Shown here: positions 12,159 through 41,304 of the stretch, one piece after another
How the letters are laid out: every line of letters starts with the position of its first letter
Numbering within the stretch: the first letter of the stretch is position 1
From: an uncultured Bacilli bacterium
GTDB taxonomy: Bacteria > Bacillota_I > Bacilli_A > RF39 > UBA660
Assembly: GCA_947626535.1 (NCBI GenBank)
Contig: CANQSO010000004.1
Coordinates: 1 to 43,256, forward strand
Reading direction: 5' to 3'
DNA length: 43,256 nucleotides
Translations under genes and position numbers: made by a program
Notes under the pieces: generated by a model
Told to the model about the DNA's origin: nothing
What the model saw: the letters and a program-made list of their open reading frames with translations, nothing else
The model's database searches: none

Positions 12159-12232
12159 AGTATAGCTTTACTTCCGAGTTTGGCACGTTTTTACTTCCGA
12201 GTTTGGCACGTTTTTACTTCCGAGTTTGGCAA
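12159..12232 (-). repeat. 23-bp tandem repeats over the ATPase promoter
   Basis: The plus-strand unit starting acttccgagtttggcacg begins at 12170, 12193 and 12216, exactly 23 bp apart, with the third copy partial. A minus-strand -10 (TATACT, 12159-12164) abuts the array, so the -35 hexamer falls inside the first copy. Confidence 0.85.
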
Positions 12233-12263: not shown

Positions 12264-13133
12264 TTATTGTAGAGTTTTTTGAAGTTTTAATACTTCTTGT
12301 TCAGTTAAACCTGTAGTTTTACATATAATATTAAAATCAACTTTTTCATTTAATAGATTTTTTGCAACTTTATTTAAACTTCGTTCTTCACCACGTTTTT
12401 CACCAATTTTTATACCACGTTCTTTTCCAATTTTTATACCACGTTCTTCGCCAATTTCTTCATGTTCTCTGGCTTTCCATAATTCTCGATCAAAAAGTTC
12501 TTTTGTTTCTTCATCATTTAAAAAATCTTCTAAACATTGGGTTATACTCATAAATACTTCATCTCCTTTCGCTATCTTTTTCATTTCTTCAATACTTTTA
12601 GCATTAAATAATTTTAAATATTTACTTAATCTATCACTTATACCAACATTATAATTTTCTTCTGTTACATTGTCAAGACATAGTATAAAGATTAAATAAT
12701 CATCTCTTAAAACATCATATTTACCATTCTTATAATTTAATAATCCATATTTATTAATGATATCTTTAACATTGCATTCCTTACAAATATTTAATTGTAT
12801 TACCTTTTTTGGTTTATATTTTTTACCTCTTTTTATCTGTGTTCCATAAAGCCTGGACGCATACTGCTTACTTTTCTCAACATTACTATTTTTAAAATTT
12901 TTATATGCCTCTAAATTATAGATAACATTATTAAATTCAACAACTATATCACCTCTTATAGATTTATCATTATATTCTGTTTTAGGTAATACATCTTCAC
13001 TTTTTAGTTTTAGATTTTTAAGTTGATATCTTTTATTAAAAAAAGTATTAATAAAATCAAGAATAAATTCTTCTTTACTAAAAATATAATTGAATACAAT
13101 ATCGTTATACAATGGTTTAAAAAATTTTGACAT
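12264..13133 (-). CDS. PD-(D/E)XK nuclease family (Rpn/transposase-like) protein
   Basis: A 289-residue relative of the PDDEXK_2 transposase/Rpn group. The N-terminus KPLYNDIVFNYIF and the catalytic region RGDIVVEFNNVIYNLEAY are visible, followed by SRLYGTQIKRGKKY and a conserved hydrophobic strand. The usual E-x-Q is E-A-Y here. The C-terminus has RGIKIGKERGIKIGEKRGEERS, encoded by imperfect 24-bp DNA repeats, and a TGLTEQEVLKL tail like that of 7636-8535. The binding site gggggat precedes the ATG. An extended nested palindrome lies upstream. Confidence 0.75.
   Translation of the reverse strand: MSKFFKPLYNDIVFNYIFSKEEFILDFINTFFNKRYQLKNLKLKSEDVLPKTEYNDKSIRGDIVVEFNNVIYNLEAYKNFKNSNVEKSKQYASRLYGTQIKRGKKYKPKKVIQLNICKECNVKDIINKYGLLNYKNGKYDVLRDDYLIFILCLDNVTEENYNVGISDRLSKYLKLFNAKSIEEMKKIAKGDEVFMSITQCLEDFLNDEETKELFDRELWKAREHEEIGEERGIKIGKERGIKIGEKRGEERSLNKVAKNLLNEKVDFNIICKTTGLTEQEVLKLQKTLQ
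12403..12450. repeat. 24-bp in-frame repeat in PDDEXK gene
   Basis: Two near-identical 24-bp copies (ccaatttttataccacgttc core) encode the RGIKIGxE tail. Copy change would preserve frame. Confidence 0.8.
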
Positions 13134-26953: not shown

Positions 26954-28543
26954 TTAAAAATCTGCATACATTGGTTCTACGGGAATATATAATCCGCCAT
27001 AAGCTCCAAAAATAATAACATATAAAACTAAAGCATAATAAATCATCCAACGAATATATATCGGTTTTTTAGCAATTTTTTCTCTAATATTAATTCCTTT
27101 TTCTTTTATAATGCTTATAATAAAAACAATTAATAAAGTTATTCCAATTATAATTAATTCATAATTAAATAATTTTAAAGCATTTAAAGTTTTCCAATTT
27201 AAACTACTTATGTTAAATTCAGTAAAGATTTTTTTAAACATAACTAAACCAATTTTTAAACTTTGCGCCCTAAAGAAAAGTTCCCCAAAAATAACAAAAA
27301 TAGTTGTTTTAATAATTCTTATAGCTTTTATAAAAAATTGTTCAGGATTTATATGACATATTTCGTAAAAATTATTTATTGCTGGATTAAAAATATTAGC
27401 CATTAATATAAGAGCAAAATGATAAAAGCCAAAGAAAACATAATGATAAGCTGCCCCGTGCCATAAACCATTACATAACCAAACTGTACCTAAAGCAATT
27501 GTTCCAGCAACTAAAGGGCCAAAATGATTACCTATTTTCTTTCGTAAAGAATTAGTTATTTTTCTAGACATTTTGCTTAAAGAAATAGGATAAAAGATAT
27601 AGTCTTTAAACCATGTTCCTAAAGTAATATGCCATCTACTCCAAAATTCTGAAATATTTTTTGAAAAAAATGGTTGACGAAAATTCTCTGGTAATTTTAT
27701 TCCAAATATTTCACCAGTACCAATAACAATATCAATTATACCTGAAAAATCCATATATAACTGAATCGTATATAAAATGGCTCCAAGCAAAAGAATTACT
27801 CCACCATATTTGTCATAACCGTTAAAAATTAATTTAACAGGCGTATTTAATCGGTCCGCTATAACTAATTTTTTTAATAAACCATAACATATTCTTTGAA
27901 TACCAAAACACATATTATGATAAGTTATTTTCTTTCCTTCATATAAATTTTCAGCTGTATCTTCATATCTTGATATAGGTCCTTCCATAATTTGTGGGAA
28001 GAAAGCTAAAAATAAAGCTAATTTAAATAAGTTATTATCGGCTTTTATCTTACCTCGATAAACATCAACTAAATAAGAAATTGCTGAAAAAGTATAAAAA
28101 GATATACCTATAGGCGCAACTAAATTAGATAATTTAAATTTTAAATTAATCTTAAACAAAGCTAAAAGATGATTAATATTTACACCAATAAAAGCCATAT
28201 ATTTAGTTAAAGTTATCATAATCATTAAAATTAAAATACCTAAAAATAAAATGCCTTTTCTTTGTTTTAAATATTTTAACTTAATTTGTTTTTTTTCTTC
28301 TTTATCTAAATCTTTAATTTGTTCTTTTTCTTCTTTTTTATTGGCATCCAACCATATGCCAAAATGATGAATACATAATGTTGCTAATAATAAATAGACA
28401 AGTAGTTTACCACTTAAAGTATATATAAAAATATAACTAGCTATTAATAAAATAAATGGTCTTTTTTTCTTGCCAACAAGTTGATAAATTAACATTACCA
28501 ATGGCAGAAATAATATCAAGAAAGTTAATTCAAAATATTGCAT
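26954..28543 (-). CDS. MBOAT family acyltransferase (DltB-like)
   Basis: A 529-residue polytopic MBOAT protein, which moves acyl or aminoacyl groups from a cytoplasmic carrier to an outside acceptor. Conserved parts: APIGISFYTFSAISYLVDVY, FPQIMEGPISRY, FRQPFFSKNISEFWSRWHIT with its WF.DY extension, and WHGAAYHYVFFGFYH, whose first His is the family's active-site residue. It is longer than typical DltB (about 400), with a Lys/Glu-rich loop around residues 75-95, and so is nearer AlgI in size. It follows the carrier-protein gene by 2 bp. Confidence 0.92.
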   Translation of the reverse strand: MQYFELTFLILFLPLVMLIYQLVGKKKRPFILLIASYIFIYTLSGKLLVYLLLATLCIHHFGIWLDANKKEEKEQIKDLDKEEKKQIKLKYLKQRKGILFLGILILMIMITLTKYMAFIGVNINHLLALFKINLKFKLSNLVAPIGISFYTFSAISYLVDVYRGKIKADNNLFKLALFLAFFPQIMEGPISRYEDTAENLYEGKKITYHNMCFGIQRICYGLLKKLVIADRLNTPVKLIFNGYDKYGGVILLLGAILYTIQLYMDFSGIIDIVIGTGEIFGIKLPENFRQPFFSKNISEFWSRWHITLGTWFKDYIFYPISLSKMSRKITNSLRKKIGNHFGPLVAGTIALGTVWLCNGLWHGAAYHYVFFGFYHFALILMANIFNPAINNFYEICHINPEQFFIKAIRIIKTTIFVIFGELFFRAQSLKIGLVMFKKIFTEFNISSLNWKTLNALKLFNYELIIIGITLLIVFIISIIKEKGINIREKIAKKPIYIRWMIYYALVLYVIIFGAYGGLYIPVEPMYADF

Positions 28544-28545
28544 TT

Positions 28546-28779
28546 TTAATCTTCCTCTTGTAATTTTTCAATTAATTTTAACATATTATCTACAGAATTA
28601 AAATTAGCTGGAATAATTTCAACAGTTGGAATGACTATATCAAATTCATCTTCTAATTCAGCAACTAAAGATAAAATTGATAATGAATCTAAATAATGTT
28701 CATCAATTAAAGTATTAAGATTTTCATAATCAACCCCAGGTTTAATATTCTCTAATATTTCTAATAAATCGTTTCTCAT
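28546..28779 (-). CDS. acyl/peptidyl carrier protein (DltC-like)
   Basis: A 77-residue acidic carrier protein with the phosphopantetheine site HYLDSLSILSLVAELEDEF (Ser at about residue 33). Size and helical layout match DltC and ACP. The start codon overlaps the stop of the decarboxylase (ATGA) and the gene is 2 bp from the MBOAT gene, so it is the dedicated carrier of this cassette rather than the fatty-acid ACP. The acpS gene at 31590-31946 may be its modifying enzyme. Confidence 0.92.
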   Translation of the reverse strand: MRNDLLEILENIKPGVDYENLNTLIDEHYLDSLSILSLVAELEDEFDIVIPTVEIIPANFNSVDNMLKLIEKLQEED

Positions 28780-29936
28780 AATTTTACCTCTCCTTCATAA
28801 TTGGGACAATTAATTTTATAACTATTAATGGTATCCCTTACTAATATTTTTTTATCACTTATTAATACAACTTTAGGCATATCTCTACTTAAAAATAAGG
28901 CAATACCTTCTGTTATTGAATAAGCTCCAACATTTTTAAAAATAAAAACGTCATCAATCTTTAATTTTGGTACTTCTAATTGTTTTACCAAAATATCATT
29001 TGTTGTACATAGTGAACCACATAAGTTTACTATTTCTTTATTTTTTTCTTTATTATTAATTATTTCATAATCTGGTATTTTCATAGCCATTGTTTGACCA
29101 TAGTATACTAAATGGTTTATTCCACCATCTAAGATTGCATATTTTTCTTTTTTATTTTCTTTTAAATCAATTACCTTTGTACAATAATAGCCACAACTAG
29201 CTACTAAACTTCGACCAATTTCTAAAATAATTTTTTTATCAGAAAAATATTTATTTAAAATGTCATTAACTTCTTTTAAAAAATTTACTTCATCAAATTC
29301 TTCTTTAAAATAATATATTGGCAACCCAGGACCATATTCTAATTCTGATAAAGTAATATGATAATTATTTTCTATCTTTAAAAATAATTCTTGTAAGTAT
29401 AAACATTCTTTTTCAATTCTTTTTAAGGAATGCTTTTGAGTTCCAGAAAAATATTCAATTCCAATAATATTTAAATATGAATTCTTTTCTTCAAAAATTT
29501 TATCTAATTTGCTTTCATCAATTCCAAATTGATTGCCACTTGTTATTCTAATTAAAATATCAATATTGTTTTGATAAGTATTACTTAGTTCATTTAATAA
29601 TTTAAATTGTTCATATGATTCAATAGTATATCTACCAATCTTTTTTTGACTTTTAAAAATATTATCAAATTCAAGTTTATTTTTATTAACACCTGATAAA
29701 ACTAATTTAGAAGAATCTATCTTTAATTTATCACAAATTTGATATTCACCATATGAACATACTTCAACTCGTTCTATATCATTAATTATTTCTTTAATAA
29801 CAAATGAATTAGCTTTAATAGCATAACAAATATCCATTTTTTTAAAAATTGATTTTAAATATTTAATTCGTTCTTTTATAATATTACAATCATAAATAAA
29901 AAGTGGCGTATTATACTTTTGAATAAGTTCTTGCAT
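28776..29936 (-). CDS. PLP-dependent fold-III decarboxylase (LysA/BtrK-like)
   Basis: A 386-residue enzyme of the diaminopimelate/ornithine decarboxylase fold-III family. The PLP Lys is Lys41 in CYAIKAN; other family blocks are VCSYGEYQIC, IEYFSGTQKHS, the phosphate-binding EYGPGLPIYY, EIGRSLVASCG, and the C-terminal CGSLCTTNDILVKQ with FKNVGAYSIT. All expected blocks appear present. The ATG at 29936 has an ideal site aaggaggt, and the gene overlaps the adenylating ligase by 26 bp and the carrier by 4. BtrK of butirosin synthesis, a relative, decarboxylates glutamate while bound to a carrier protein, which is a direct precedent. A free-substrate decarboxylase or a racemase cannot be excluded. 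Confidence 0.85.
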   Translation of the reverse strand: MQELIQKYNTPLFIYDCNIIKERIKYLKSIFKKMDICYAIKANSFVIKEIINDIERVEVCSYGEYQICDKLKIDSSKLVLSGVNKNKLEFDNIFKSQKKIGRYTIESYEQFKLLNELSNTYQNNIDILIRITSGNQFGIDESKLDKIFEEKNSYLNIIGIEYFSGTQKHSLKRIEKECLYLQELFLKIENNYHITLSELEYGPGLPIYYFKEEFDEVNFLKEVNDILNKYFSDKKIILEIGRSLVASCGYYCTKVIDLKENKKEKYAILDGGINHLVYYGQTMAMKIPDYEIINNKEKNKEIVNLCGSLCTTNDILVKQLEVPKLKIDDVFIFKNVGAYSITEGIALFLSRDMPKVVLISDKKILVRDTINSYKINCPNYEGEVKL

Positions 29937-31461
29937 TTTTACCTCCTTCAATCATTTCCAACAAATATTTTCGATCAATTTTACCATTTTTATTTAATTT
30001 AAATTCTTCAAGTTTAACAAAGTTTGTTGGTATCATATAAGGAGGAACTTTTAATTTTAATTCATTAATTATATCCTCTTTAGTAACATCGCCTATATAA
30101 AAATTATACAGTCGCGATTTTTTTTCATAAAAAATTGTTACTGTTCTTTTAATATTTTTAATTTTAGATATTTCACGATCAATTTCCTCTAATTCAATTC
30201 GATGACCCATATATTTAATTTGAAAATCTTTTCTTCCTAAGAAAACTAAATTCCCATCTTCATCATATTTTCCTAAATCACCGGTTCGATAGATTAATTC
30301 ATGATATTTATTATTTAAAGGATTTTGAATAAATGAGGTAGCCGTTTGAGAAGGAAAATTATAATAACCAAGGGCTAGGCATGAACCACTGACACATATT
30401 TCTCCAATAGTTGTACCCCCGACCCTAGGAGATATTAGTTCATTAGTTTCCACATTAAGAAGAAATACTCTTTCATTTTTAAAAGGCTTACCAATTGGAA
30501 TATATTCATCATAAGTTTTTTGACGGTCAATAATATGATATGTACAATTACAAGTTATTTCTGTTGGTCCATAAACATTAACAAATGTTGCATCTGGTAA
30601 TTTATCCATCCACATTTTTAAATGTTTTAAAGGCATTACTTCACCACTAAAAATAATTTTATTAACAGTTTTAGGAACTTTATATTCTAAGCCATGAAAA
30701 GTTGTAATTAAGCATAACGCTGATACAGCCCATATCATCGTTGTAATATTATTAGCAACAATGTAATCTAATAAATTAGTAGGCATTGAAAAATATTTTT
30801 TTGGAACAATTACTAAAGTTGCTCCAACAAAAAAAGTTGAATAAATATCTTTAACAGATACATCAAAATCAAAAGGAGCTTGATTAGCAATAATATCTTT
30901 TTCATTAATATTAAATTCATTAGTAAAAACATTAATAAAATCAATTATTGAACGATGACCAACTACTACTCCTTTAGGAACACCAGTTGAACCTGAAGTA
31001 AAATTAATATAAACAGGGTCTAAATCTATTTTTTGTTCTTTAATCGCATTAAGTGTTTCATTATCTATTTTGCCAACTAATAAATCATCAACTAATAAAA
31101 TTGTACAATCTTCAAATATTTCTTTACATTGTTGATAATTTTCTTCATTAGTTATGACAATTTTACTTTCTAAAACATTAATAATTTGATTTATTCTACT
31201 TTTAGGAAATTCTAAATTAACTAAACTATAGCAACCACCTGCATATAAAATACCAAAGAAAGTTTCTAAAGTTTTTATTCCTTTATCCATATAAACCATT
31301 ATTGGTTCATTTATTGAAATTTGACTAATTAAATTTGTTGCTATTACTTTAGATGTTTTTAATAAATCTTGATAAGTTATTTTTTCGCCTTCCTCAATAA
31401 CGGCAATTTTTTTAGCATATTTTTCACAATTTAATTCTAAATAATCTGTAACAAACTTCAT
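29911..31461 (-). CDS. amino acid adenylating ligase (DltA-like)
   Basis: A 516-residue adenylate-forming enzyme that activates an amino acid and loads it on a carrier protein. Core motifs: YINFTSGSTGVPKGVV (P-loop), APFDFDVSVKDIY with the Asp expected to hold the alpha-amino group, NVYGPTEITC, YRTGDLGKYDEDG, FLGRKDFQIKYMGHRIELEEID, and the catalytic Lys in NKNGKIDRKYL. Size fits DltA. Where DltA has FCGEVLP this protein has FSGEVMP; the Cys there is, from memory, linked to D-alanine choice, so the substrate may differ. ATG 31461 (site ggtgag) is preferred over a GTG four codons earlier. It is the first gene of the Dlt-like cassette. Confidence 0.88.
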   Translation of the reverse strand: MKFVTDYLELNCEKYAKKIAVIEEGEKITYQDLLKTSKVIATNLISQISINEPIMVYMDKGIKTLETFFGILYAGGCYSLVNLEFPKSRINQIINVLESKIVITNEENYQQCKEIFEDCTILLVDDLLVGKIDNETLNAIKEQKIDLDPVYINFTSGSTGVPKGVVVGHRSIIDFINVFTNEFNINEKDIIANQAPFDFDVSVKDIYSTFFVGATLVIVPKKYFSMPTNLLDYIVANNITTMIWAVSALCLITTFHGLEYKVPKTVNKIIFSGEVMPLKHLKMWMDKLPDATFVNVYGPTEITCNCTYHIIDRQKTYDEYIPIGKPFKNERVFLLNVETNELISPRVGGTTIGEICVSGSCLALGYYNFPSQTATSFIQNPLNNKYHELIYRTGDLGKYDEDGNLVFLGRKDFQIKYMGHRIELEEIDREISKIKNIKRTVTIFYEKKSRLYNFYIGDVTKEDIINELKLKVPPYMIPTNFVKLEEFKLNKNGKIDRKYLLEMIEGGKNARTYSKV

Positions 31462-31492
31462 TTTACTCACCACTTATTAACTTGCTAAAAAT

Positions 31493-31954: not shown

Positions 31955-33538
31955 TTACATTATTTTATTTAATGTAATATTAGATTCATTAATATTTAAG
32001 ATATAATCAATATTATTATTTAAATCACTAATATAAACATTATTTATTTTACTTTTTTTATTACTTCCACAATCTATATTTATAAGATATTTTTTATCTT
32101 TTTTCATTGCCTCATTTTTTAATTTATTATATTTATCACTATTAAATGGTACTGATTCATATATTCCTCGATTAAATAGTAAATTAAGATATCCTCTAAC
32201 ACTATTAGAACTTGTTAAAATACTATTTTCATAGTTATAATTTGATTTAATATAGTCAGCTATTAAATTATTTCTAGCCGTATAATTAAAATCAGAAACA
32301 TACTCATTTTTTTTATAAAGATAATTGTTGCAATTTAAAATAGCCATAAATATAGCAAAAATTAAAATATAAGTAGCAAAAAACTTATCATTTTTATTTT
32401 GTTTAGTAATTGTAATTATTATTAAAAATAATAAAATAATTAAAATAAAGATAACTTTTAATCTATCAAAACTATATACAGTAGCATGCTGCATTAATAA
32501 AAAATTTTCTACAATAATAAATGAAAAAAATATAATTGGATATTGATATTCCTTTAATAATATCCAAAATTTTTGACGATAATTTTTTAAAAGCAATATC
32601 GTAATTAATAAAATACTTATTAAGAATATCAAATATTTATATGATAAAATATATCCTTTGAATAAATCATAAAAACTAGCTATTTTTAAAACTGTATTTC
32701 TAGCAAAGAAGCGATTATACATTGCCTTAATAACAACAGAAAATTCAATATTTAAAAGATAATGGCCAATAAATAGAAATAAGGAAATTATAGTAAGAAT
32801 TCCTACTATCACAGACTCTTTAAAACAATTTAAATTTATTTTTTTATTTTTCTGATAATTTTTAATAAACAGTAAAATCATAAAAGCCCCATTACTTATA
32901 AATCCAGTCCATTCAACATAAGGCAAAATTAAACATAAAATATAAAACAATATCTTATTTTTTCTATTTTGATCATAATTTAAAAAAGTAAGAAAATGTC
33001 CCAATAATAAAACTTGCATAATTGAATGAATCCAATAAATAACACCTTGAGAATGCATAACTTCCATTTGAAACAAATAAATTAAAGAAGTTAAAATAAT
33101 TATAAAATTTTTAGATAAATATTTTGAAAATAATTTAATCATTAATTTAATTGTTAAGAATAATGATAATATTAAAATTATACTATTAAATACATATAAA
33201 CTATATTCATTAATTGGTAAAGAAAATAATTTTATAAACAAATAGGGACATACAAATCCAACAGCTGAAAATGATGTGTAGTAATAATTACCTTTAGAAT
33301 CTTTAACTGTTGCTCCCCAAGATATATTTTTATCTTCTTCATTTCCTAGTGAAACAATCGGCAAAAATTTATGAATACTTAAAGGTGTCTCATCATATGC
33401 TTTGATAGTTAATAAAGTGTGATATGTAGCATCGTTATTTTTATAAGATTTGTTTTCTTTTGGAATTCTTAATAATATTCCAATTCCTATTAAAAGCACA
33501 ACTAAAATATAAATGAAATTTTTTTTAATAAACTGCAT
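31955..33538 (-). CDS. GT-C-like polytopic membrane glycosyltransferase
   Basis: A 527-residue protein with 11-13 predicted spans and a hydrophilic C-terminal tail. After the first span an outer loop contains NDATYH and a Tyr-rich stretch, as in GT-C enzymes that use polyprenyl-phosphate sugars and carry an acidic catalytic residue there. I cannot place it in a named family. It is the last gene of the leftward operon and follows the SMR-like pair by 9 bp, which supports a transferase acting after flipping. Converges on acpS. Confidence 0.55.
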   Translation of the reverse strand: MQFIKKNFIYILVVLLIGIGILLRIPKENKSYKNNDATYHTLLTIKAYDETPLSIHKFLPIVSLGNEEDKNISWGATVKDSKGNYYYTSFSAVGFVCPYLFIKLFSLPINEYSLYVFNSIILILSLFLTIKLMIKLFSKYLSKNFIIILTSLIYLFQMEVMHSQGVIYWIHSIMQVLLLGHFLTFLNYDQNRKNKILFYILCLILPYVEWTGFISNGAFMILLFIKNYQKNKKINLNCFKESVIVGILTIISLFLFIGHYLLNIEFSVVIKAMYNRFFARNTVLKIASFYDLFKGYILSYKYLIFLISILLITILLLKNYRQKFWILLKEYQYPIIFFSFIIVENFLLMQHATVYSFDRLKVIFILIILLFLIIITITKQNKNDKFFATYILIFAIFMAILNCNNYLYKKNEYVSDFNYTARNNLIADYIKSNYNYENSILTSSNSVRGYLNLLFNRGIYESVPFNSDKYNKLKNEAMKKDKKYLINIDCGSNKKSKINNVYISDLNNNIDYILNINESNITLNKIM

Positions 33539-33547
33539 AACTTCCTC

Positions 33548-33877
33548 CTATATTGCTAAAATAATTACGCCGGTAATAATAATAAATACACCAACTATTT
33601 TTTTTAAACTTATTTTTTCCTTTAAAAATTGATAAGAAATAATTAAAGTCCAAATATAAGTTATTGAAGTCATAGGTAAAACAAGAGAATAATCTAAATA
33701 TTTTAATAAATAAATATTTAATACTGCTGATAATAAATATAAGAAGCCTCCTAAATAAAGATTATAATTTTTAATAAGGTCTAATATTTTTTCACTCTTT
33801 GAAGCCTTTTTTAGAAAAAATGAAGCTATCGCACCAATTAAAGTCATTACAATTAGTAGTAGATAGTATTTAATCAT
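33548..33877 (-). CDS. SMR/EamA-type half transporter, subunit 2
   Basis: A 109-residue four-span protein of the EmrE/ArnE-like fold: LLIVMTLIGAIASFFLKKAS, then SLVLPMTSITYIWTLI and GVFIIITGVIIL. ATG 33877 follows GGAGGTGG and overlaps the stop of the preceding half gene, so both halves are made together. ArnE/ArnF pairs flip a polyprenyl-phosphate aminosugar; the neighbouring GT2 and GT-C genes suit the same job here. Confidence 0.8.
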   Translation of the reverse strand: MIKYYLLLIVMTLIGAIASFFLKKASKSEKILDLIKNYNLYLGGFLYLLSAVLNIYLLKYLDYSLVLPMTSITYIWTLIISYQFLKEKISLKKIVGVFIIITGVIILAI

Positions 33878-34211
33878 TATCTCCACCTCCAATTAAAATG
33901 ACACCAATAATAATAATTATAATACCTATAAAATCATACCAAAATATTTGTTCTTTTAAAATTAAAGATGCTAAAATAATTGTAAAAATATAATTAGCAC
34001 TTAACATTGGTTGTAAAACCGATAAACTTCCAAATTTATATGCATAAAGCATTAATAAAGCCCCTATTCCATACAAACCAAAACCAATTATTAAATACAA
34101 AATATTATTATCAACTGATAATTTCCAAAACAATTGTCCTAAACATACACAAAAAGAAGATAATAACATTATTATTATTCCTTTTTTATTTTTTCTTAAT
34201 GATTCAATCAT
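33870..34211 (-). CDS. SMR/EamA-type half transporter, subunit 1
   Basis: A 113-residue four-span protein: IIMLLSSFCVCLGQLFWKLS, FGSLSVLQPMLSANYIFTII, GIIIIIIGVILIGG. The ATG at 34211 overlaps the stop of the GT-C gene before it (ATGATTGA) with site aaagag. With 33548-33877 it forms a presumed heterodimer with opposite topologies. Confidence 0.8.
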   Translation of the reverse strand: MIESLRKNKKGIIIMLLSSFCVCLGQLFWKLSVDNNILYLIIGFGLYGIGALLMLYAYKFGSLSVLQPMLSANYIFTIILASLILKEQIFWYDFIGIIIIIIGVILIGGGDND

Positions 34212-35634
34212 TAGTATCACTCTTTCTAAATTTTATTTTACTCATAATTATTGATATAAAATTAAAAAATATTGATAAATCTAAAATAAAACATAAATAT
34301 AATGATGGATAAAAATATCTAATTTCAAATGACTGAGTATTTATAATATAGGCCCCATAATAAAATACGGATAGCAAAAAGATAAATAGATAATAATTTG
34401 TTTTTTTATCCTTTTGCTTTTTACTTACAAATATAGCCAAAATAGTAAGAAGATAAACTATCCATGGTCTTCGTATCACAAAACCAAATAATTCATTAAA
34501 CTTATCATAACTCTTTACAAATAAAACTCTCATTTTACTATCACTAAAATTATATTTTTTCATTATATTCCAACGATTATAATTATATTCGGCATAACTA
34601 ATTTTTTTAACAATCCCTAAAGTTTTTAAAGTAAAATTTCCTTTTACTTTAAAATATGTTAATGGTTCTTTTATTATTAAATTAATATATTTACTTAAAA
34701 TAATTTTAGAATTACCTTCCTTAGAAAGATTTTCTTTATTTATTTTACTTTCAAATAAGGAATTAACTGAACCTTCTGCAGATATCTTTAATGCTTCTTC
34801 TGTTGAACCACTCCCACCTATTTCATCTAAATAATTTAAATAATTTTGTTTTTTTCCATCGTCTAAATGTTGAATAACACTTATAATTTCCCAAGCAAAA
34901 CCAGCTGAAACACTAGACATAATTTTAATATTTAAAATCATTGGTAGTAAAAAAGTTAATAAATATCCAAACATTAAACTAAAAGTTGTAAGTAATTTTA
35001 ACTTTTTATCTACCTTTAATTTATAAACATAAAATAATAATACTGGAATAACGGTAAATGCATTAGCACGATAACCAAACATCATAAAAGAGAAAAAAAT
35101 TATTAAGCCAAATTCTATAATTTTATCAAATACACTTTTATTAATTTTTATCATATCTAATAACAATATTAAATAAACTAAAGCCGCGACACATAAAATA
35201 GAAGCTTCATAATAAACAGAAACACAATATATTAACGGGCTTAATGTTAATATTATATATTTTGCTTTTAAGTAACCCTCCCCCCCATTATTTAACTTTT
35301 TACATAATAAAAAAGTAGCCTGAAAAAACATAAATGCTTGAAAAACGGTATATGAAGCAATATTACCTGTAATAACTTTAAAAAATTCCATAAAAAACGA
35401 TGGTACAACAGTTAGCCAACAACTGACATTTATTAAATTTCTTTGTCCATTTAAAATCATTTTTAAACATTTACCAATTGTTAAAGACATATTATATCTA
35501 CTATATGAATCAGAATACCATATTCCTGGATATGTTATTAAAGTACATAATATTGCTAAAAATAAACTGCCAATAATTATATTTTTATTATTTTTAATTT
35601 TTTGAATATAAAAACTTTTTTTTATGCTGTTCAT
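34204..35634 (-). CDS. GT-C-like polytopic membrane protein with G7 tract
   Basis: A 476-residue protein with about ten spans. The first outer loop reads TYPGIWYSDSYSRYN, an Asp-containing loop reminiscent of GT-C glycosyltransferases; a long hydrophilic insert (about residues 255-345) precedes the last spans. The family is not certain. The ATG at 35634 has aggag 9 bp upstream. A run of seven G (35280-35286) encodes the Gly-Gly of NNGGEG in an inner loop; the frame is presently intact. Confidence 0.5.
   Translation of the reverse strand: MNSIKKSFYIQKIKNNKNIIIGSLFLAILCTLITYPGIWYSDSYSRYNMSLTIGKCLKMILNGQRNLINVSCWLTVVPSFFMEFFKVITGNIASYTVFQAFMFFQATFLLCKKLNNGGEGYLKAKYIILTLSPLIYCVSVYYEASILCVAALVYLILLLDMIKINKSVFDKIIEFGLIIFFSFMMFGYRANAFTVIPVLLFYVYKLKVDKKLKLLTTFSLMFGYLLTFLLPMILNIKIMSSVSAGFAWEIISVIQHLDDGKKQNYLNYLDEIGGSGSTEEALKISAEGSVNSLFESKINKENLSKEGNSKIILSKYINLIIKEPLTYFKVKGNFTLKTLGIVKKISYAEYNYNRWNIMKKYNFSDSKMRVLFVKSYDKFNELFGFVIRRPWIVYLLTILAIFVSKKQKDKKTNYYLFIFLLSVFYYGAYIINTQSFEIRYFYPSLYLCFILDLSIFFNFISIIMSKIKFRKSDTND
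35280..35286. repeat. poly-C/poly-G tract, 7 bp
   Basis: Seven C on the plus strand within the GT-C-like gene, immediately beside another GGG. One base more or fewer would truncate the protein near residue 118. Confidence 0.9.
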
Positions 35635-35646
35635 AATCAAGTACTC

Positions 35647-36579
35647 CTAATTTAATTTATCTATAGATTCAATTAGATAATTAGTTTTCTTAAAAATTAA
35701 ATTTAATATTAATGATAAATATTTAATAATAATAGCATAAATCAAAAATACTCCTGTAAATCCAAAAGACATAAATAACATCGTTGATGCCCAACCTTCA
35801 ACAGTTTGTTTAGTAAAAAATGTTACTAAAGTATAAATACTTACAAAGATACTAAATAAGAACATAATCATTGTTAAAATAATGGTAGCTTTATAACTAA
35901 CATCTGTAAATAATATCAACGCATCAAAAGCATTTTTACCACGTTCTCTTTTTAGTTGTTTATCAATTTTTAAATTATTTGTTTTAGTTTGTTTATAATA
36001 TATTGAAGTTATTTTTAAACCGCAATTTGCTTGAATTGCTTTACGATAAGGAATTGTTTTATTCATAGCATTCATTCGATTAATTGCTCTTCTTGAAACA
36101 ATTCTAAAAGTTTCGGTATCAATTTTATATTGATAATTTGAAAATTTATTAAACAATTTATAAAATAATGTTGAAGATTTTTTTCTTTTGCCTTTACTAC
36201 TTGTATTAACAATATCATAACCTTCTAAAGATTTTAAATATGTTTCAAAAATTAAATCTAAATTATAATCAATATAAACCGAATCAAATTCATAAACAAA
36301 ATCTCCTATTGCTAAATCAACACCAGCATTCATAGATAATTCTAAACCTTGATAATAACTCATATTAATAACACTAACTGTAGCATTATTAACATTTTTA
36401 GCAAATTCTTTTATTTCATTTAATGAATTATCAATAGATTCATCATTAACAAAGATAATCTCATACTTTAAAAATTTATCTTCTAATACTTTATTTAATT
36501 TTAAAGCAAAATCTTTAATTATTTTTTCATTATTTCGAACATATACAACCGCTGAAATAAAATTTTTTTCTTTATTCAT
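35647..36579 (-). CDS. GT2 polyprenyl-phosphate sugar synthase (GtrB/DPM1-like)
   Basis: A 310-residue GT-A family 2 glycosyltransferase followed by two C-terminal membrane spans, the layout of GtrB-like enzymes that load a sugar on undecaprenyl phosphate. N-terminal SAVVYVRNNE, IIFVNDESIDNS, and a position equivalent to the DxD that reads EFDSVYIDY, are visible. The DxD is atypical. It overlaps the FAD oxidoreductase gene by 4 bp. It is the likely donor-making partner of the GT-C and SMR-like genes. Confidence 0.82.
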   Translation of the reverse strand: MNKEKNFISAVVYVRNNEKIIKDFALKLNKVLEDKFLKYEIIFVNDESIDNSLNEIKEFAKNVNNATVSVINMSYYQGLELSMNAGVDLAIGDFVYEFDSVYIDYNLDLIFETYLKSLEGYDIVNTSSKGKRKKSSTLFYKLFNKFSNYQYKIDTETFRIVSRRAINRMNAMNKTIPYRKAIQANCGLKITSIYYKQTKTNNLKIDKQLKRERGKNAFDALILFTDVSYKATIILTMIMFLFSIFVSIYTLVTFFTKQTVEGWASTMLFMSFGFTGVFLIYAIIIKYLSLILNLIFKKTNYLIESIDKLN

Positions 36580-37694
36580 TTTAACACCTCATCTAAATCA
36601 TATACGGTATTTATTTTACCAGATAACACACTTATAAAAGTAGGATTAGTACTAAATTTTTTGATAACTGTTGGTCTTGAATCATCAATTTCACTAGCTT
36701 TTAGAATTGGTTTCATTGAAAATAATGAGCCAACATATTCAAAACCAAATTCCTCTTTTAAATATTTTTTAGCTAAATTAGACATGTAAGGCCATGCACT
36801 TTGAGGTTTATGTGGACACTCATTACAATTTCCAAGTTTTTTAGGACTACAATAATTATTTTTTAAATTCTTTTGACATTCAAAAGTTGGACAACTATCA
36901 TACGATGTTTTATGCGGAGTAAAAGTTACACTTGTTAAAGAATGATATCCTGTTTTACCAAATGGCATGATTGAAAAGAAAGGACCATCCATTACAGTTA
37001 TACCAACATTTTTAAATTTTTCTGAAACAGTACATAAAATAATTTCACATAATTCATATTTAATTTTAAATGGTTCAAATCCTAACATTTCATGAATTTG
37101 ATTAACACTTGCATAAGTAGCATTTAAAATATATCCACTTTTATATATACCAGTATTAGTTTTAATATCATAAGTAGTTTTATTTTTTTTAATATCTGTT
37201 ATATCTTCATTAAATTTAATTGTTACATTTTTATATTTTTTAATTTCTTTCAAAAAATAATCTTTTAATATCTGGGCATCATAAGTATATTCTTTGGTAA
37301 GAAAAGCTCCATCACACATTCCTTCTTTAAAATATTTATTTGTATTTACTTCATCACACATTATATTAGCATTTTCACAAAATTTTTTAAATTGTTTAGC
37401 ATCAGTCCAAGAAAATTTAGAACTTGTAGCATAAACTTGATCAAAACTTGATAGGATAGAAAAATCATAATCCTTATTAAATCTTTCAAAATAATGTGCA
37501 GATTTAATTGCCGTAGAATAACTTCTAGGATAATGATAGCCCATATGAACTCTTGCTTGATTAATATATGTTGCTCTTTTAAAAGCATTATCCTCTTTTT
37601 CTAAAACTAAAACTTTCTCACCTTTCTTACCACAATATAAGGCTGCATATAAACCATAAATTCCAGCTCCTATAATAATTTTATCGTACTGCAT
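36576..37694 (-). CDS. FAD-dependent oxidoreductase with Cys cluster
   Basis: A 372-residue DAO-like flavoprotein: FAD-binding IIGAGIYGLYAALYCGKKG (residues 6-24), then VLVLEKED, a substrate domain, and a C-terminal FISVLSGKINTVYD. Between about residues 265 and 296 lies an insert with five Cys spaced C-x4-C-x8-C-x7-C-x2-C, ending CPHKPQSAWPY, which could hold zinc or an iron-sulfur cluster. The substrate is unknown; flanking GT2 genes suggest oxidation of a sugar or sugar-linked group in glycan synthesis. Confidence 0.8.
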   Translation of the reverse strand: MQYDKIIIGAGIYGLYAALYCGKKGEKVLVLEKEDNAFKRATYINQARVHMGYHYPRSYSTAIKSAHYFERFNKDYDFSILSSFDQVYATSSKFSWTDAKQFKKFCENANIMCDEVNTNKYFKEGMCDGAFLTKEYTYDAQILKDYFLKEIKKYKNVTIKFNEDITDIKKNKTTYDIKTNTGIYKSGYILNATYASVNQIHEMLGFEPFKIKYELCEIILCTVSEKFKNVGITVMDGPFFSIMPFGKTGYHSLTSVTFTPHKTSYDSCPTFECQKNLKNNYCSPKKLGNCNECPHKPQSAWPYMSNLAKKYLKEEFGFEYVGSLFSMKPILKASEIDDSRPTVIKKFSTNPTFISVLSGKINTVYDLDEVLK

Positions 37695-37697
37695 AAT

Positions 37698-38516
37698 TCA
37701 CCTCTTATTGTTTTCTTCTATATTTTTTACGTCATATTGATGAAATAAGTTTTTAACTAATATTTTCATTAAATTTGAATTTCCTTTTATAGGACTAATT
37801 TTAGTCGGAGTAGCTTCATTTTTAGGATATTCTCTTTTTACAGGTATTTCACAAGTTTTCATTTTTAATTGGTCAGCTTTAACTGATAAATAAGCTAATA
37901 ATTCATAAGTAACAAATATATCTCTTAATGGTTGAACATTTTCATTTTCTAAATATTCTTTGGAATAAGCTCGAAAATTATTAGTGGTGTCTGTATACCA
38001 TTTGTGGGCAGCCAAAGATATTATTGGTGCATGAATAAAACGAACTGATAAATATCTAATTACTGGTGTATTAATAGCTTCTCCACCTTTAATAAAACGT
38101 GACCCTTGAACAAAATCATAACCCTCTTCTAATTTTTTAATAAATTTTGGAACATCTTCAATACTATCTTTATTATTACCATCAATTGTTATAATTCCAG
38201 AGTATCCTCTTTGTAAAGCATAATAAATTCCCATCCTTAATTGAGCACCTTGACGTCCTTCTCCCGTTTTTATTAATAAGGTGTTTACCCCATATGATTT
38301 TAATAATTTATCGTCAGTGCTACCATCACTTGATTTTCCATCGCAAATAATTATATCAACTAAAGAATCAATATTTTTATTTTTAGCTCTTTCTAATTCT
38401 TTTTTTATTCTGTCTCCTTCATTTAAAATTGGAATTAATAAACAATATTTATTTTGCTTTTGACTATATTCTTTGATTGTAAAATCAGGAACACCATTAA
38501 TATTCTTTTTTTCCAT
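37698..38516 (-). CDS. GT2 family glycosyltransferase
   Basis: A 272-residue soluble GT-A glycosyltransferase of the DPM1/GT2 type: LLIPILNEGDRI, IIICDGKSSDGST, GEGRQGAQLRMG, IITIDGNNKDS (DGN where DxD is usual), and QGSRFIKGG. No membrane span. ATG 38516 (site aggtga) is chosen over a GTG three codons earlier. It precedes the FAD enzyme by 3 bp. Confidence 0.88.
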   Translation of the reverse strand: MEKKNINGVPDFTIKEYSQKQNKYCLLIPILNEGDRIKKELERAKNKNIDSLVDIIICDGKSSDGSTDDKLLKSYGVNTLLIKTGEGRQGAQLRMGIYYALQRGYSGIITIDGNNKDSIEDVPKFIKKLEEGYDFVQGSRFIKGGEAINTPVIRYLSVRFIHAPIISLAAHKWYTDTTNNFRAYSKEYLENENVQPLRDIFVTYELLAYLSVKADQLKMKTCEIPVKREYPKNEATPTKISPIKGNSNLMKILVKNLFHQYDVKNIEENNKR

Positions 38517-38525
38517 AATCTTCAC

Positions 38526-39308
38526 CTATAATTCTAAAACATATTCTAACACGTCCATGATATTTTTTAAACTAGTTTGCTTCATTTCAATTGAAACAAT
38601 TTTATCGTATTTTTGTTTTTTTAAAATTGCAAATAATTCTAAATGAAGATGATTCTTTTTAATAATTTCTAAATTAGGTTCACTAATATGAATATGATTA
38701 ATTAAATCAAGATTTTCTTTAATAATAGTTAATTTTTCATTATTAGCTATTACCGTTCCAAAATCATAATTAATTTTAACACTAGGCAAATTAATTTCTT
38801 TAACAAAATCTAGAGCTTCTTTAGTAGTATTTAAAAAATTAGTATTATAAATAGTAGGATTAGGTTCTAGAGCAATTACAACATTATAATCTAACGCAAA
38901 AAGCCCAATATCTTTAAAAAAATTTAAAGCTATAGCATAATCTTTTTCATAATTATCCATATTTCGATTTTTAGGATTACCAAACACTAAATTTTGACAT
39001 CCTATAGCATGGGCAAATAAAATAGCTTTTTTAGTATATTCTACTAACATTTGATAATTTTCTTCACTAGCAAAAATGTTTTCTTTTTTGCCAAACCAAA
39101 TTGATTGCATAGACACAATATCTAACTGATAATTACTTTTTAATTCTTGAGCTATTTTTTTAGCTTCATCTAAATGATCATAAGGATCTTTTTCAATTAT
39201 TCTTGTTGGAGCAATTTCTAAAGATGTAATATTATTTTCTTTTAAATAATTATACATTATATTATCATCATCTTTAGTCCAAGCAATATTAGAAATGGCT
39301 AATTTCAT
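38526..39308 (-). CDS. sugar phosphate isomerase/epimerase-like TIM-barrel protein
   Basis: A 260-residue protein of the AP-endonuclease-2/xylose-isomerase-like fold: LEIAPTRI, QSIWFG, LVFGNPKNR, IALEPNPTIYNTNFLNTT, VKINYDFGT, and HIHISEPN carry the His/Glu/Asp metal ligands expected of the fold. The reaction cannot be read from sequence. It lies between an SDR epimerase and a GT2 gene, so a sugar-modifying role is likely. Confidence 0.85.
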   Translation of the reverse strand: MKLAISNIAWTKDDDNIMYNYLKENNITSLEIAPTRIIEKDPYDHLDEAKKIAQELKSNYQLDIVSMQSIWFGKKENIFASEENYQMLVEYTKKAILFAHAIGCQNLVFGNPKNRNMDNYEKDYAIALNFFKDIGLFALDYNVVIALEPNPTIYNTNFLNTTKEALDFVKEINLPSVKINYDFGTVIANNEKLTIIKENLDLINHIHISEPNLEIIKKNHLHLELFAILKKQKYDKIVSIEMKQTSLKNIMDVLEYVLEL

Positions 39309-39316
39309 TACTATCC

Positions 39317-40237
39317 CTACTTTCTTTCTAAAACAAATTTTTTAATATCTTCTAAAACATAATCTTTATCATAAATATAACCATTCTGGCCATTAAACAC
39401 TTTTGCATACTTAGTTTTAAAATTATAATTAGGAATAACATTACTAATTTCATTATTAAAATCTTTAGCAAAAAGATAATAATATAATTCTTTAATAGTT
39501 ATTGGTTCTGTAGCTACATTTAAAATTTTAATATCATGTTTAATAACATCTAAAATATGTCCCCATAAGTTAGCCAAGTTATAAAATTGAAATGAGCCTC
39601 TGCTATCAGTAAAATTTAAAGCTGAAAAACCTAAATCATTAAAAACTTTTTTTAATTTTTTTTGTTCTTCATTTGTTAAATCACGACACTTATAAAAACC
39701 ATTATCAATCTTAAAATAATATTTAGCTAGTTCACTATTTTGTAATAATAATTCTTCATATTTATTTTCTTTTAACATACTAGGAATAATATTAATTAAA
39801 TCATAAATAAAATTTTTCTTTAAATTTTTACCATACAAACCAGGAAGTCTAATAATATGATAATCATAAATATTGTTAATAACCCAATCTTCTAAATATT
39901 TTCGATTTTTACCATATGCATCTTTACTTACTTCAAACATAGTTTCTTCATCAACATTTACTGGATTATCATAAACATCAATAGTTGAAATTAAAACCAA
40001 TTTTTTGGGATTAATTTTTTTAATATTTTCTATAGCATTTAAGATAATTTTAAAATCTTCATCAGGATTAGCATTAGCAATAAATTTTTGAGCTGGTATT
40101 CCACAATAAACTAGAAGATCAGGATTTAAATCAAAAGCTTCATTAATATTTTTAGAATTAAAACACTGAGTAAACTGATGTTGGGCATTAATATTCGAAC
40201 CAACAAAACCTGTATAACCTACTAAAAATTCTTTCAT
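39317..40237 (-). CDS. NAD-dependent epimerase/dehydratase (SDR)
   Basis: A 306-residue extended SDR: FLVGYTGFVGSN (NAD binding), LVLISTIDVYDNP, and the active-site Tyr in DAYGKNRKYLE (Y-G-K-N-R-K, so Y-x3-K fits). The ATG at 40237 follows gaggc; an upstream ATG has no site. It is the first gene of the second glycan operon. The sugar substrate is unknown. Confidence 0.85.
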   Translation of the reverse strand: MKEFLVGYTGFVGSNINAQHQFTQCFNSKNINEAFDLNPDLLVYCGIPAQKFIANANPDEDFKIILNAIENIKKINPKKLVLISTIDVYDNPVNVDEETMFEVSKDAYGKNRKYLEDWVINNIYDYHIIRLPGLYGKNLKKNFIYDLINIIPSMLKENKYEELLLQNSELAKYYFKIDNGFYKCRDLTNEEQKKLKKVFNDLGFSALNFTDSRGSFQFYNLANLWGHILDVIKHDIKILNVATEPITIKELYYYLFAKDFNNEISNVIPNYNFKTKYAKVFNGQNGYIYDKDYVLEDIKKFVLERK

Positions 40238-40285
40238 AACTTGCCTCTTTTCTATAAGAATAAATTTTTTTATCAATACTTTTAT

Positions 40286-40314
40286 ATTTTATCATTTCTA
40301 AAAATGTTTAACAA
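40286..40314 (-). promoter_or_regulatory. promoter of second glycan operon
   Basis: On the minus strand TTGTTA (40309-40314), a 17-bp spacer and TAAAAT (40286-40291). Most of it lies in a 31-nt segment copied from, or shared with, the 3' end of lysR. Confidence 0.65.
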
Positions 40315-40317
40315 CAT
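40287..40317. repeat. 31-nt duplicate of the lysR 3' end (promoter copy)
   Basis: Matches 40432-40462 at 30 of 31 positions. It contains the -35 and most of the -10 of the operon promoter. Confidence 0.85.
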
Positions 40318-40343
40318 ATAGTATTTAAAAATCGAGGAATTTA

Positions 40344-40402
40344 AACACCACTGAACCCATTTAACACCACTGAACACCACTGAACACCGCTGAACACCAT
40401 TG
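40344..40402. repeat. 10-bp tandem repeats
   Basis: Unit AACACCACTG at 40344-40353 and then four head-to-tail copies from 40363 to 40402, with single changes in the last two. Ten bp is about one DNA turn, so sites would lie on one face. They sit 30-90 bp upstream of the operon promoter. Confidence 0.85.
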
Positions 40403-40425
40403 GTCAGCTCTGGTCTGCTCTTATT

Positions 40426-41304
40426 TTATTTTTTTATCATTTCTAAAAATGTTTCACAACATCTATTAAAATAATTTTGTTTTAAACATATAATACCAAA
40501 ATCCCTTTTAGGAATTTTTGGTATTACATTTAATTCATATAATTCTTTATTATTTAATTCTTTTAAAACATATTCTTTAGTTACTACTCCTACTCCATAA
40601 CCTATTTTAGCAAATTCAATTAATAAATTAGAAGATGCTGCATCAATAACACTATGTAAAGTAACATTATTTTCTTTACAATATTTTTCAATATAATCTC
40701 TTGAACTAGATGGTTGTTTTTGCATTAAAATTGGTAATTTAACTAAATCTTTTAAATTAAGTTTTTGATTTATTAATTCATGATAATCTTTACTTACTAC
40801 AAATATATCTTCTAAAGTTCCTAATTTTTGATACCATAAATCATCGGTTATTATTAAAGGAAATTTATTAATTATAAAATCAATATTTCCCTTTTTTAAA
40901 TCTTCTTTTAATTTACTTGTTGGATCAGTACTAATCTCAAAATTAACATTTGGATAGTCTTTATGAAACATTTTTATATAAGGCATTAAAAAGTTTTTAG
41001 CTAAAGTTGTACTTATACCTATTCTAATTGTTCCTACTAATAAATCTTGACCATCTTTAATTTTTTGAGTTGCTTTAGAAAGTAAATTTAAAGCTTCTTC
41101 TATATCATTATAAATTAAATTACCTTCTTTAGTTAAAATAACGCCTTTTTGATTTCTAATAAATAATTTACAATTATAAATACTTTCTAATTTTTTAATT
41201 TGTTTAGTTATTGCTGGTTGAGAAATATGTAATTTTTCACTAGCTTTTGAGATATTTTTAGCTTTTGCCACTTCATAAAATAAATTCCACAAATCTAAAT
41301 TCAT
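40426..41304 (-). CDS. LysR family transcriptional regulator
   Basis: A 292-residue LysR protein: N-terminal helix-turn-helix NISKASEKLHISQPAITKQI (residues 18-37), GVILTKEG, then a substrate-binding domain beginning LVGTIRIGISTT with GNIDFIINKFPL. Related to the CysL/YwfK-like branch by general look only. It is divergent from the HD gene with overlapping promoters, the usual layout for LysR autocontrol and control of the divergent gene. Confidence 0.93.
   Translation of the reverse strand: MNLDLWNLFYEVAKAKNISKASEKLHISQPAITKQIKKLESIYNCKLFIRNQKGVILTKEGNLIYNDIEEALNLLSKATQKIKDGQDLLVGTIRIGISTTLAKNFLMPYIKMFHKDYPNVNFEISTDPTSKLKEDLKKGNIDFIINKFPLIITDDLWYQKLGTLEDIFVVSKDYHELINQKLNLKDLVKLPILMQKQPSSSRDYIEKYCKENNVTLHSVIDAASSNLLIEFAKIGYGVGVVTKEYVLKELNNKELYELNVIPKIPKRDFGIICLKQNYFNRCCETFLEMIKK
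40432..40462. repeat. 31-nt duplicate within lysR 3' end
   Basis: Encodes the last residues of LysR (CCETFLEMIK). It matches 40287-40317 with one mismatch. Confidence 0.85.

Follow-up and report, generated by a model that had tools for sequence, protein, structure and literature searches.

Introduction

Minisatellites near promoters consist of short units repeated head to tail, their copy number varies among relatives, and a promoter lies adjacent. The array described here, situated between a lysR-family regulator gene and a glycan operon of an uncultured Bacilli bacterium, shares these properties, but differs from minisatellites in its period of near one helical turn, in a unit family linked to a regulator, and in its site at the putative border of a gene cassette. 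Plasmid Rep iterons and the ParR sites in parC are comparable to the arrays at AlbA_2 loci treated below, in that direct repeats of approximately one helical turn lie beside a gene for a putative nucleic-acid-binding protein. However, the window contains no Rep, ParR or ParM gene, no partition (parC/ParR-ParM) or Rep genes were found next to the array in the window's gene content, and no binder gene of that kind adjoins the array. In capsule-type exchangeable polysaccharide loci a conserved flank is followed by variable glycan genes, as it is here beyond an HD gene and lysR; unlike in those loci, crossover probably took place within a tandem array, and the tail of the flank gene appears to have given rise to the first promoter. 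Putative regulators with SLFN_AlbA_2 and HATPase_c_4 domains (PF04326, PF13749) are connected to the locus by an array in a related genome, G047, which shares both units and orientation with the array of the window, whereas the window itself has no such gene. The sole solved relative of these proteins found by sequence is 3LMM, which is uncharacterised. In open-licence papers we found no description of AlbA_2 with tandem or direct repeats, and nothing relevant on tandem repeats at capsule-locus promoters.

The window, i.e., the whole stretch of DNA that was analysed, is 43,256 nucleotides long and belongs to a draft genome, G000, which is 68% complete. All compared genomes are draft MAGs. The junction features given with coordinates below are all on the minus strand.

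Duplication of the lysR end

The lysR coding sequence (40426..41304) was recognized as an open reading frame with PF00126 and PF03466 domains and orthologues in other genomes; the duplication derives from its last codons, CCETFLEMIKK-stop. An earlier note on this DNA had reported that a 31-nt segment at the lysR stop codon is repeated 145 bp away. Indeed, 40287-40317 matches 40432-40462 in all but one of the 31 positions (30 of 31), at an offset of 145 bp, and the similarity is longer than the segment, comprising 47 nt at 85% identity when aligned without gaps, or approximately 52 nt when two gaps, of 4 nt and 1 nt, are allowed. The leader of the glycan operon aligned to the lysR 3' region with a score of 64, while the maximum in 3000 dinucleotide shuffles was 45 and the highest value among 566 further stretches taken from the window was 47. 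The duplication of the lysR end is true and far beyond chance. Its 22-mer core occurs without mismatches at two sites alone in the 1.53-Mb draft genome, namely in both copies. A genome-wide dispersed repeat was rejected, the array and the exact duplicated core being found nowhere else in G000.

The copy at 40422..40468, which takes in the final codons of lysR together with the stop, stays coding in lysR orthologues from G007 (73% amino acid identity) to G002 (97%). Because this copy is conserved coding sequence, down to an orthologue of 73% identity, the other one (40276..40330, approximately 50 nt, core 40287-40317), identified as a repeat match and also present in G002, is the derivative.

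Predicted promoter and the glycan operon

The derived copy carries a promoter-like site on the minus strand, consisting of TTGTTA as the predicted -35 (40309..40314), a 17-nt spacer ending in TGA, and TAAAAT, which gives a predicted extended -10 of the form TG-A-TAAAAT (40286..40291). The copy contributes the -35 and five of the six bases of TAAAAT. The corresponding hexamers in the lysR source are TTGTGA and TAAAAA, and it is a one-base deletion together with an A-to-T change that creates the T at position 6 of the -10. The claim that the derived copy supplies a promoter-like -35 and most of a -10 before the operon is borne out by the sequence. The arrangement of -35, 17-nt spacer, TGn and -10 is that of sigma-70/SigA extended -10 promoters, though it is one site and weak when taken alone. 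It was the single consensus match on the minus strand between the array and the ATG; sigma-70-like matches in general were not enriched (9 found, 9.8 expected from shuffles). Since such matches are as common in shuffled sequence, the assignment of the derived copy as the predicted promoter of the glycan operon leans on its position and conservation.

The operon extends over 31955..40237, as delimited by gene families and by 94-99% identity with G002. Its first gene (39317..40237) encodes an NAD-dependent epimerase/RmlD-like protein according to domain matches, and AGAGG at 40244..40248, identical in G002, is the likely Shine-Dalgarno sequence. The gene most likely starts at ATG 40237 and not at TTG 40276 of the open reading frame list, because homology to G003 resumes exactly at that codon. 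The leader gave no Rfam match and no intrinsic terminator, and its predicted folding did not differ from expectation (z=0.02). The leaders of G003 and G009 show weak similarity to that of the window or none, yet a TGTTAAAAT extended -10 is present in each; the local score between the G000 and G009 leaders, 37, was reached in 13 of 2000 shuffles, and a leader common to these two was not claimed. Two other groups of genes in the window were recorded. Firstly, two overlapping short reading frames at 33548-34220, both with a match to EamA, resemble a paired small flippase. Secondly, genes for an MBOAT acyltransferase, a PLP-dependent decarboxylase-like protein and an AMP-binding enzyme stand in a row at 26954-31473, suggesting aminoacyl-type glycan decoration.

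The array beside lysR

The repeat search and comparison with relatives delimited an array of approximately eight 10-bp units at 40344..40421, about 30 bp upstream of the predicted -35. Read in the sense of the operon, the units are GAGCAGACCA, GAGCTGACCA, ATGGTGTTCA, GCGGTGTTCA, GTGGTGTTCA, GTGGTGTTAA, ATGGGTTCA and GTGGTGTTTA. Five 10-bp repeats had been noticed earlier between the two copies, and these were recovered as clear AACACCACTG-type units at 40344, 40363, 40373, 40383 and 40393; a degenerate 9-bp unit at 40354 and two related TGGTCAGCTC-type units at 40402-40421 bring the number to about eight. The array is degenerate (82% matches in TRF). Coding function was rejected, since a period of 10 shifts the frame with each unit; although none of the frames is closed by a stop in the repeated GTGGTGTTCA unit, the ATG within the array lacks a ribosome site in front of it, and units of the G047 array contain TGA. 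It is plausible that the units are protein-binding sites. Elsewhere in the window, a DUF4143/AAA_14 gene and a PDDEXK_2 gene enclose a 23-bp perfect repeat at 12167-12231, and the PDDEXK_2 gene itself contains a 12/24-bp repeat at 12382-12462.

Orthologues of LysR were found in G002, G003, G007, G009 and G017, and also in G049, next to its array. Directly 3' of the lysR stop codon the array comprises approximately 8 units in G000, 6 in G002, 7 in G009 and approximately 28 in G049, numbers which derive from draft MAGs where long arrays may be mis-sized. Head-to-tail units differing in number among close relatives characterise it as a variable tandem repeat array. G003 has at most one unit-like stretch (0-1) after lysR, yet retains the operon, and the orthologues in G017 and G007 have no array.

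History of the junction

The gene downstream of the orthologous lysR is not constant. The epimerase operon takes this place in G000, G003 and G002 (in the last via contig ends), Bac_transf in G009, and another gene in G017. A leader with the copy of the lysR end precedes the epimerase operon of G002 and is identical to the window at 104 of 108 positions (87 of 88 in the copy and the 5' UTR), making G002 a second species with the same operon and leader. Since leader and copy are common to G000 and G002, the duplication predates the split of these species or moved between them. The G002 junction is divided over two contig ends that share one terminal inverted repeat, GTTACTACTCAGCCAT, next to which stands an 8-bp sequence, CAATGGTG, that looks like a target duplication (end of C81, L071:5414-5429; start of C10, L158:59-74). 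These features indicate insertion of a putative transposable element in the lysR array of G002, the element itself being absent from the assembly.

Comparison of the junction in related strains had been proposed as a check of the original observation, and it showed the duplicated copy with the epimerase operon in G000 and G002, and the array of G009 in front of Bac_transf. The earlier note also held that the same arrangement in distant genomes, with different downstream genes only by chance, would speak against it, and no such recurrence was encountered. The combination of lysR and array with another downstream gene occurs in G009, a close relative, by homology, and the duplicated copy was seen solely with the epimerase operon, in G000 and G002.

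The two sides of the junction differ in divergence. The window at 31.8-40.35 kb aligns to G002 in one continuous alignment of 96.4% identity. Operon genes of the two genomes are 94-99% identical and the epimerase 98.2%, against 94.9% for lysR and 92.7% for the HD gene. Synonymous-codon differences amount to 10 of 300 in the epimerase versus 34 of 285 in lysR (Fisher p=7e-5). The nearest relative of the G000 lysR is that of G009 (98.3%), which has the array with Bac_transf behind it, while the G002 lysR is nearest to that of G049 (97.6%). Bases after the stop codon agree with this, AAAATAAGAGC uniting G000 with G009 and AAAATTATGAGC uniting G002 with G049, unlike the leader, which unites G000 with G002. 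The disagreement between these two groupings places the switch of history in the array. The suggestion that the junction is the boundary of an exchangeable glycan cassette thus gains support from the discordant lysR and operon histories in relatives: a conserved flank is followed by different downstream genes, and divergence is discordant across the border. We infer a recombination border in or beside the array, where the G002 side of the junction was read from two contig ends. Cassette exchange with a crossover in the array would be the simplest reading, though different constraint, and not transfer, could account for part of the high identity of the operons in G000 and G002.

Arrays at AlbA_2/HATPase_c_4 genes

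Arrays were searched with a degenerate 30-nt pattern of three units, the reversed control of which gave zero matches. The pattern found arrays in 7 of 37 genomes of the genus, one of them a weak two-mismatch match in G014, and in one more genome among 296 of the class. Those arrays in these Bacilli which do not follow lysR immediately follow a gene that encodes SLFN_AlbA_2 and HATPase_c_4 domains in G047 and in Lapin-025 bin58. A remnant in G014 belongs with these, and G240 is possibly alike, its contig starting there. Units GAGCTGACCA and ATGGTGTTCA of the window recur exactly, and in the same orientation, in the array behind the AlbA_2 gene of G047, and via these shared units the window array falls within the unit family of AlbA_2-linked 10-12 bp arrays. 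When neighbours are compared, G050 lacks 1.8 kb present in G047, comprising the AlbA_2 gene and most of the array between the same neighbours (G047:C1, L066:9420-11230; G050:C11, L067 near 9200), and keeps the promoter region of the gene and approximately three units. G050 thus illustrates one way for a solo array to come about.

No AlbA_2 gene was found in the window or in the examined flanks of the lysR arrays, the contigs of G002 and G049 ending beside the array, and the 68%-complete G000 genome yielded no AlbA_2 gene belonging to the close subfamily, so that binding in trans is left without a candidate. The window array looks like an orphan member of the AlbA_2-linked class with no regulator gene beside it, a link based on similarity and orientation of units and not on a gene remnant.

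Beyond these genomes, AlbA_2/HATPase_c_4 loci were sampled (L119-L148, L150, L151, L156, L164, L166, L168, L170 and L171). Arrays of 10-12 bp units were present at 25 of 49 AlbA_2 genes and at 8 of 256 control genes (p=1.5e-16, an optimistic value, as the sample contains related genes and the G047 and Lapin-025 loci entered through their arrays). Among nearby arrays, a period of 10-12 was found in 26 of 38 at AlbA_2 genes versus 8 of 41 in controls. The period is 10, 11 or 12, the units are mostly specific for each gene, and the arrays lie after, before or inside the gene. A homologue on a Streptococcus dysgalactiae plasmid has 20 perfect copies of TAGGATACAG, and an S. respiraculi plasmid has 15.6 perfect copies of TTTATTGTAG, beginning with the first base past the stop codon; arrays were also found at homologues of a Lactobacillus iners plasmid, two streptococcal satellite phages and others. 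Several homologues had no array, i.e., those of Azospirillum, a Gordonia phage, a Mycobacterium phage and Rubrobacter. Judged from this association, each regulator probably binds the array at its own gene.

A pattern search also returned resembling 10-mers in Streptomyces, Phormidium, Verrucomicrobia and others; homology was considered and rejected, as none has an AlbA_2 gene in the examined flank, and they were treated as chance or independent arrays. A Spartobacteria locus (L104:4585-4709) carries 12.5 copies of a similar 10-bp unit, AAAGGTGTCC, in the interval of a clpX-like and a helicase-like gene, with no AlbA_2 gene in the examined flank. The PADLOC match of AlbA_2 proteins to pAgo models covers the shared AlbA_2-like part and was not counted as a defence role.

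Discussion

We regard the locus as the border of an exchangeable surface-glycan cassette, where a copy of the lysR tail has turned promoter and the array represents orphan iterons of AlbA_2 type, and give this reading a probability of roughly 0.6. The history of the junction is well supported; promoter activity and protein binding we infer from motifs and comparisons. In an ancestor shared with the G002/G049 lineage, or donated by it, approximately 50 nt of the lysR 3' end would have been duplicated downstream of the 10-bp array. A small deletion and a few substitutions would then have made the non-coding copy an extended -10 promoter driving the glycan operon. The array beside lysR expands and contracts, and cassettes would have been exchanged by recombination in or next to it, a step for which the discordance comes from the compared genomes and the crossover is presumed. 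Most likely the array is an orphan of those accompanying SLFN_AlbA_2/HATPase_c_4 regulators; with the regulator gene absent here, it may be a relic or a trans-acting operator.

Another explanation, which we consider possible though not probable, is that slippage generated the array as a neutral minisatellite, and that array and duplicated lysR end are replication accidents which do nothing apart from the promoter. In its favour, the units drift freely in number and sequence and those of G000 are degenerate, an insertion-sequence-like element appears to sit in the G002 array, RNA folding is ordinary, and the operon of G003 persists without an array. However, slippage alone does not predict that AlbA_2 arrays cluster at periods of 10-12 with different units, nor that orientation and exact units are common to the lysR array and an AlbA_2-linked one. 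Of similarly doubtful standing is the idea that the second copy arrived with a foreign cassette joined to another lysR allele, as an integration scar, and not by local duplication. The cassette has indeed a history different from that of lysR, and the copy matches the G002/G049 allele slightly better than its own (score 67 vs 64), but this difference corresponds to approximately three bases, and none of the genomes with a lysR orthologue was found to have a complete second lysR in front of the operon. Finally, that the array is a multi-site operator through which the adjacent LysR regulates the glycan operon is very improbable: although lysR adjoins the array, its transcription runs in the direction of the operon and the array lies approximately 30 bp upstream of the -35, regulators of the LysR type typically recognise T-N11-A dyads at their own promoters. 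LysR is not a likely binder, given that the intergenic region between lysR and the HD gene contains no array-like unit, and G003, G017 and G007 have the orthologue without the array. The closest relatives of the array, moreover, are found at AlbA_2 regulator genes and not with LysR.

The arrangement combines known kinds of process, and the link to AlbA_2 is unexpected and most worth following. As a tentative and rather doubtful extension, AlbA_2/HATPase_c_4 proteins may be regulators of a widespread and undescribed class, in which every protein binds a helical-phase array of 10-12 bp iterons of its own, located after, before or inside its gene, on chromosomes, plasmids and phages, with the array of the window as an orphan operator that controls or marks the border of a glycan cassette. 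Relatives on both sides of the event show a non-coding copy of a gene end becoming a likely operon promoter, and a tandem array can serve as the crossover zone of a surface-glycan cassette. A family of regulators that is common but uncharacterised appears to carry iteron arrays of its own along with it, a side result that may matter more than the promoter. Each AlbA_2 array would be the predicted target of the neighbouring protein, and the function of the family thereby becomes a testable question of binding.
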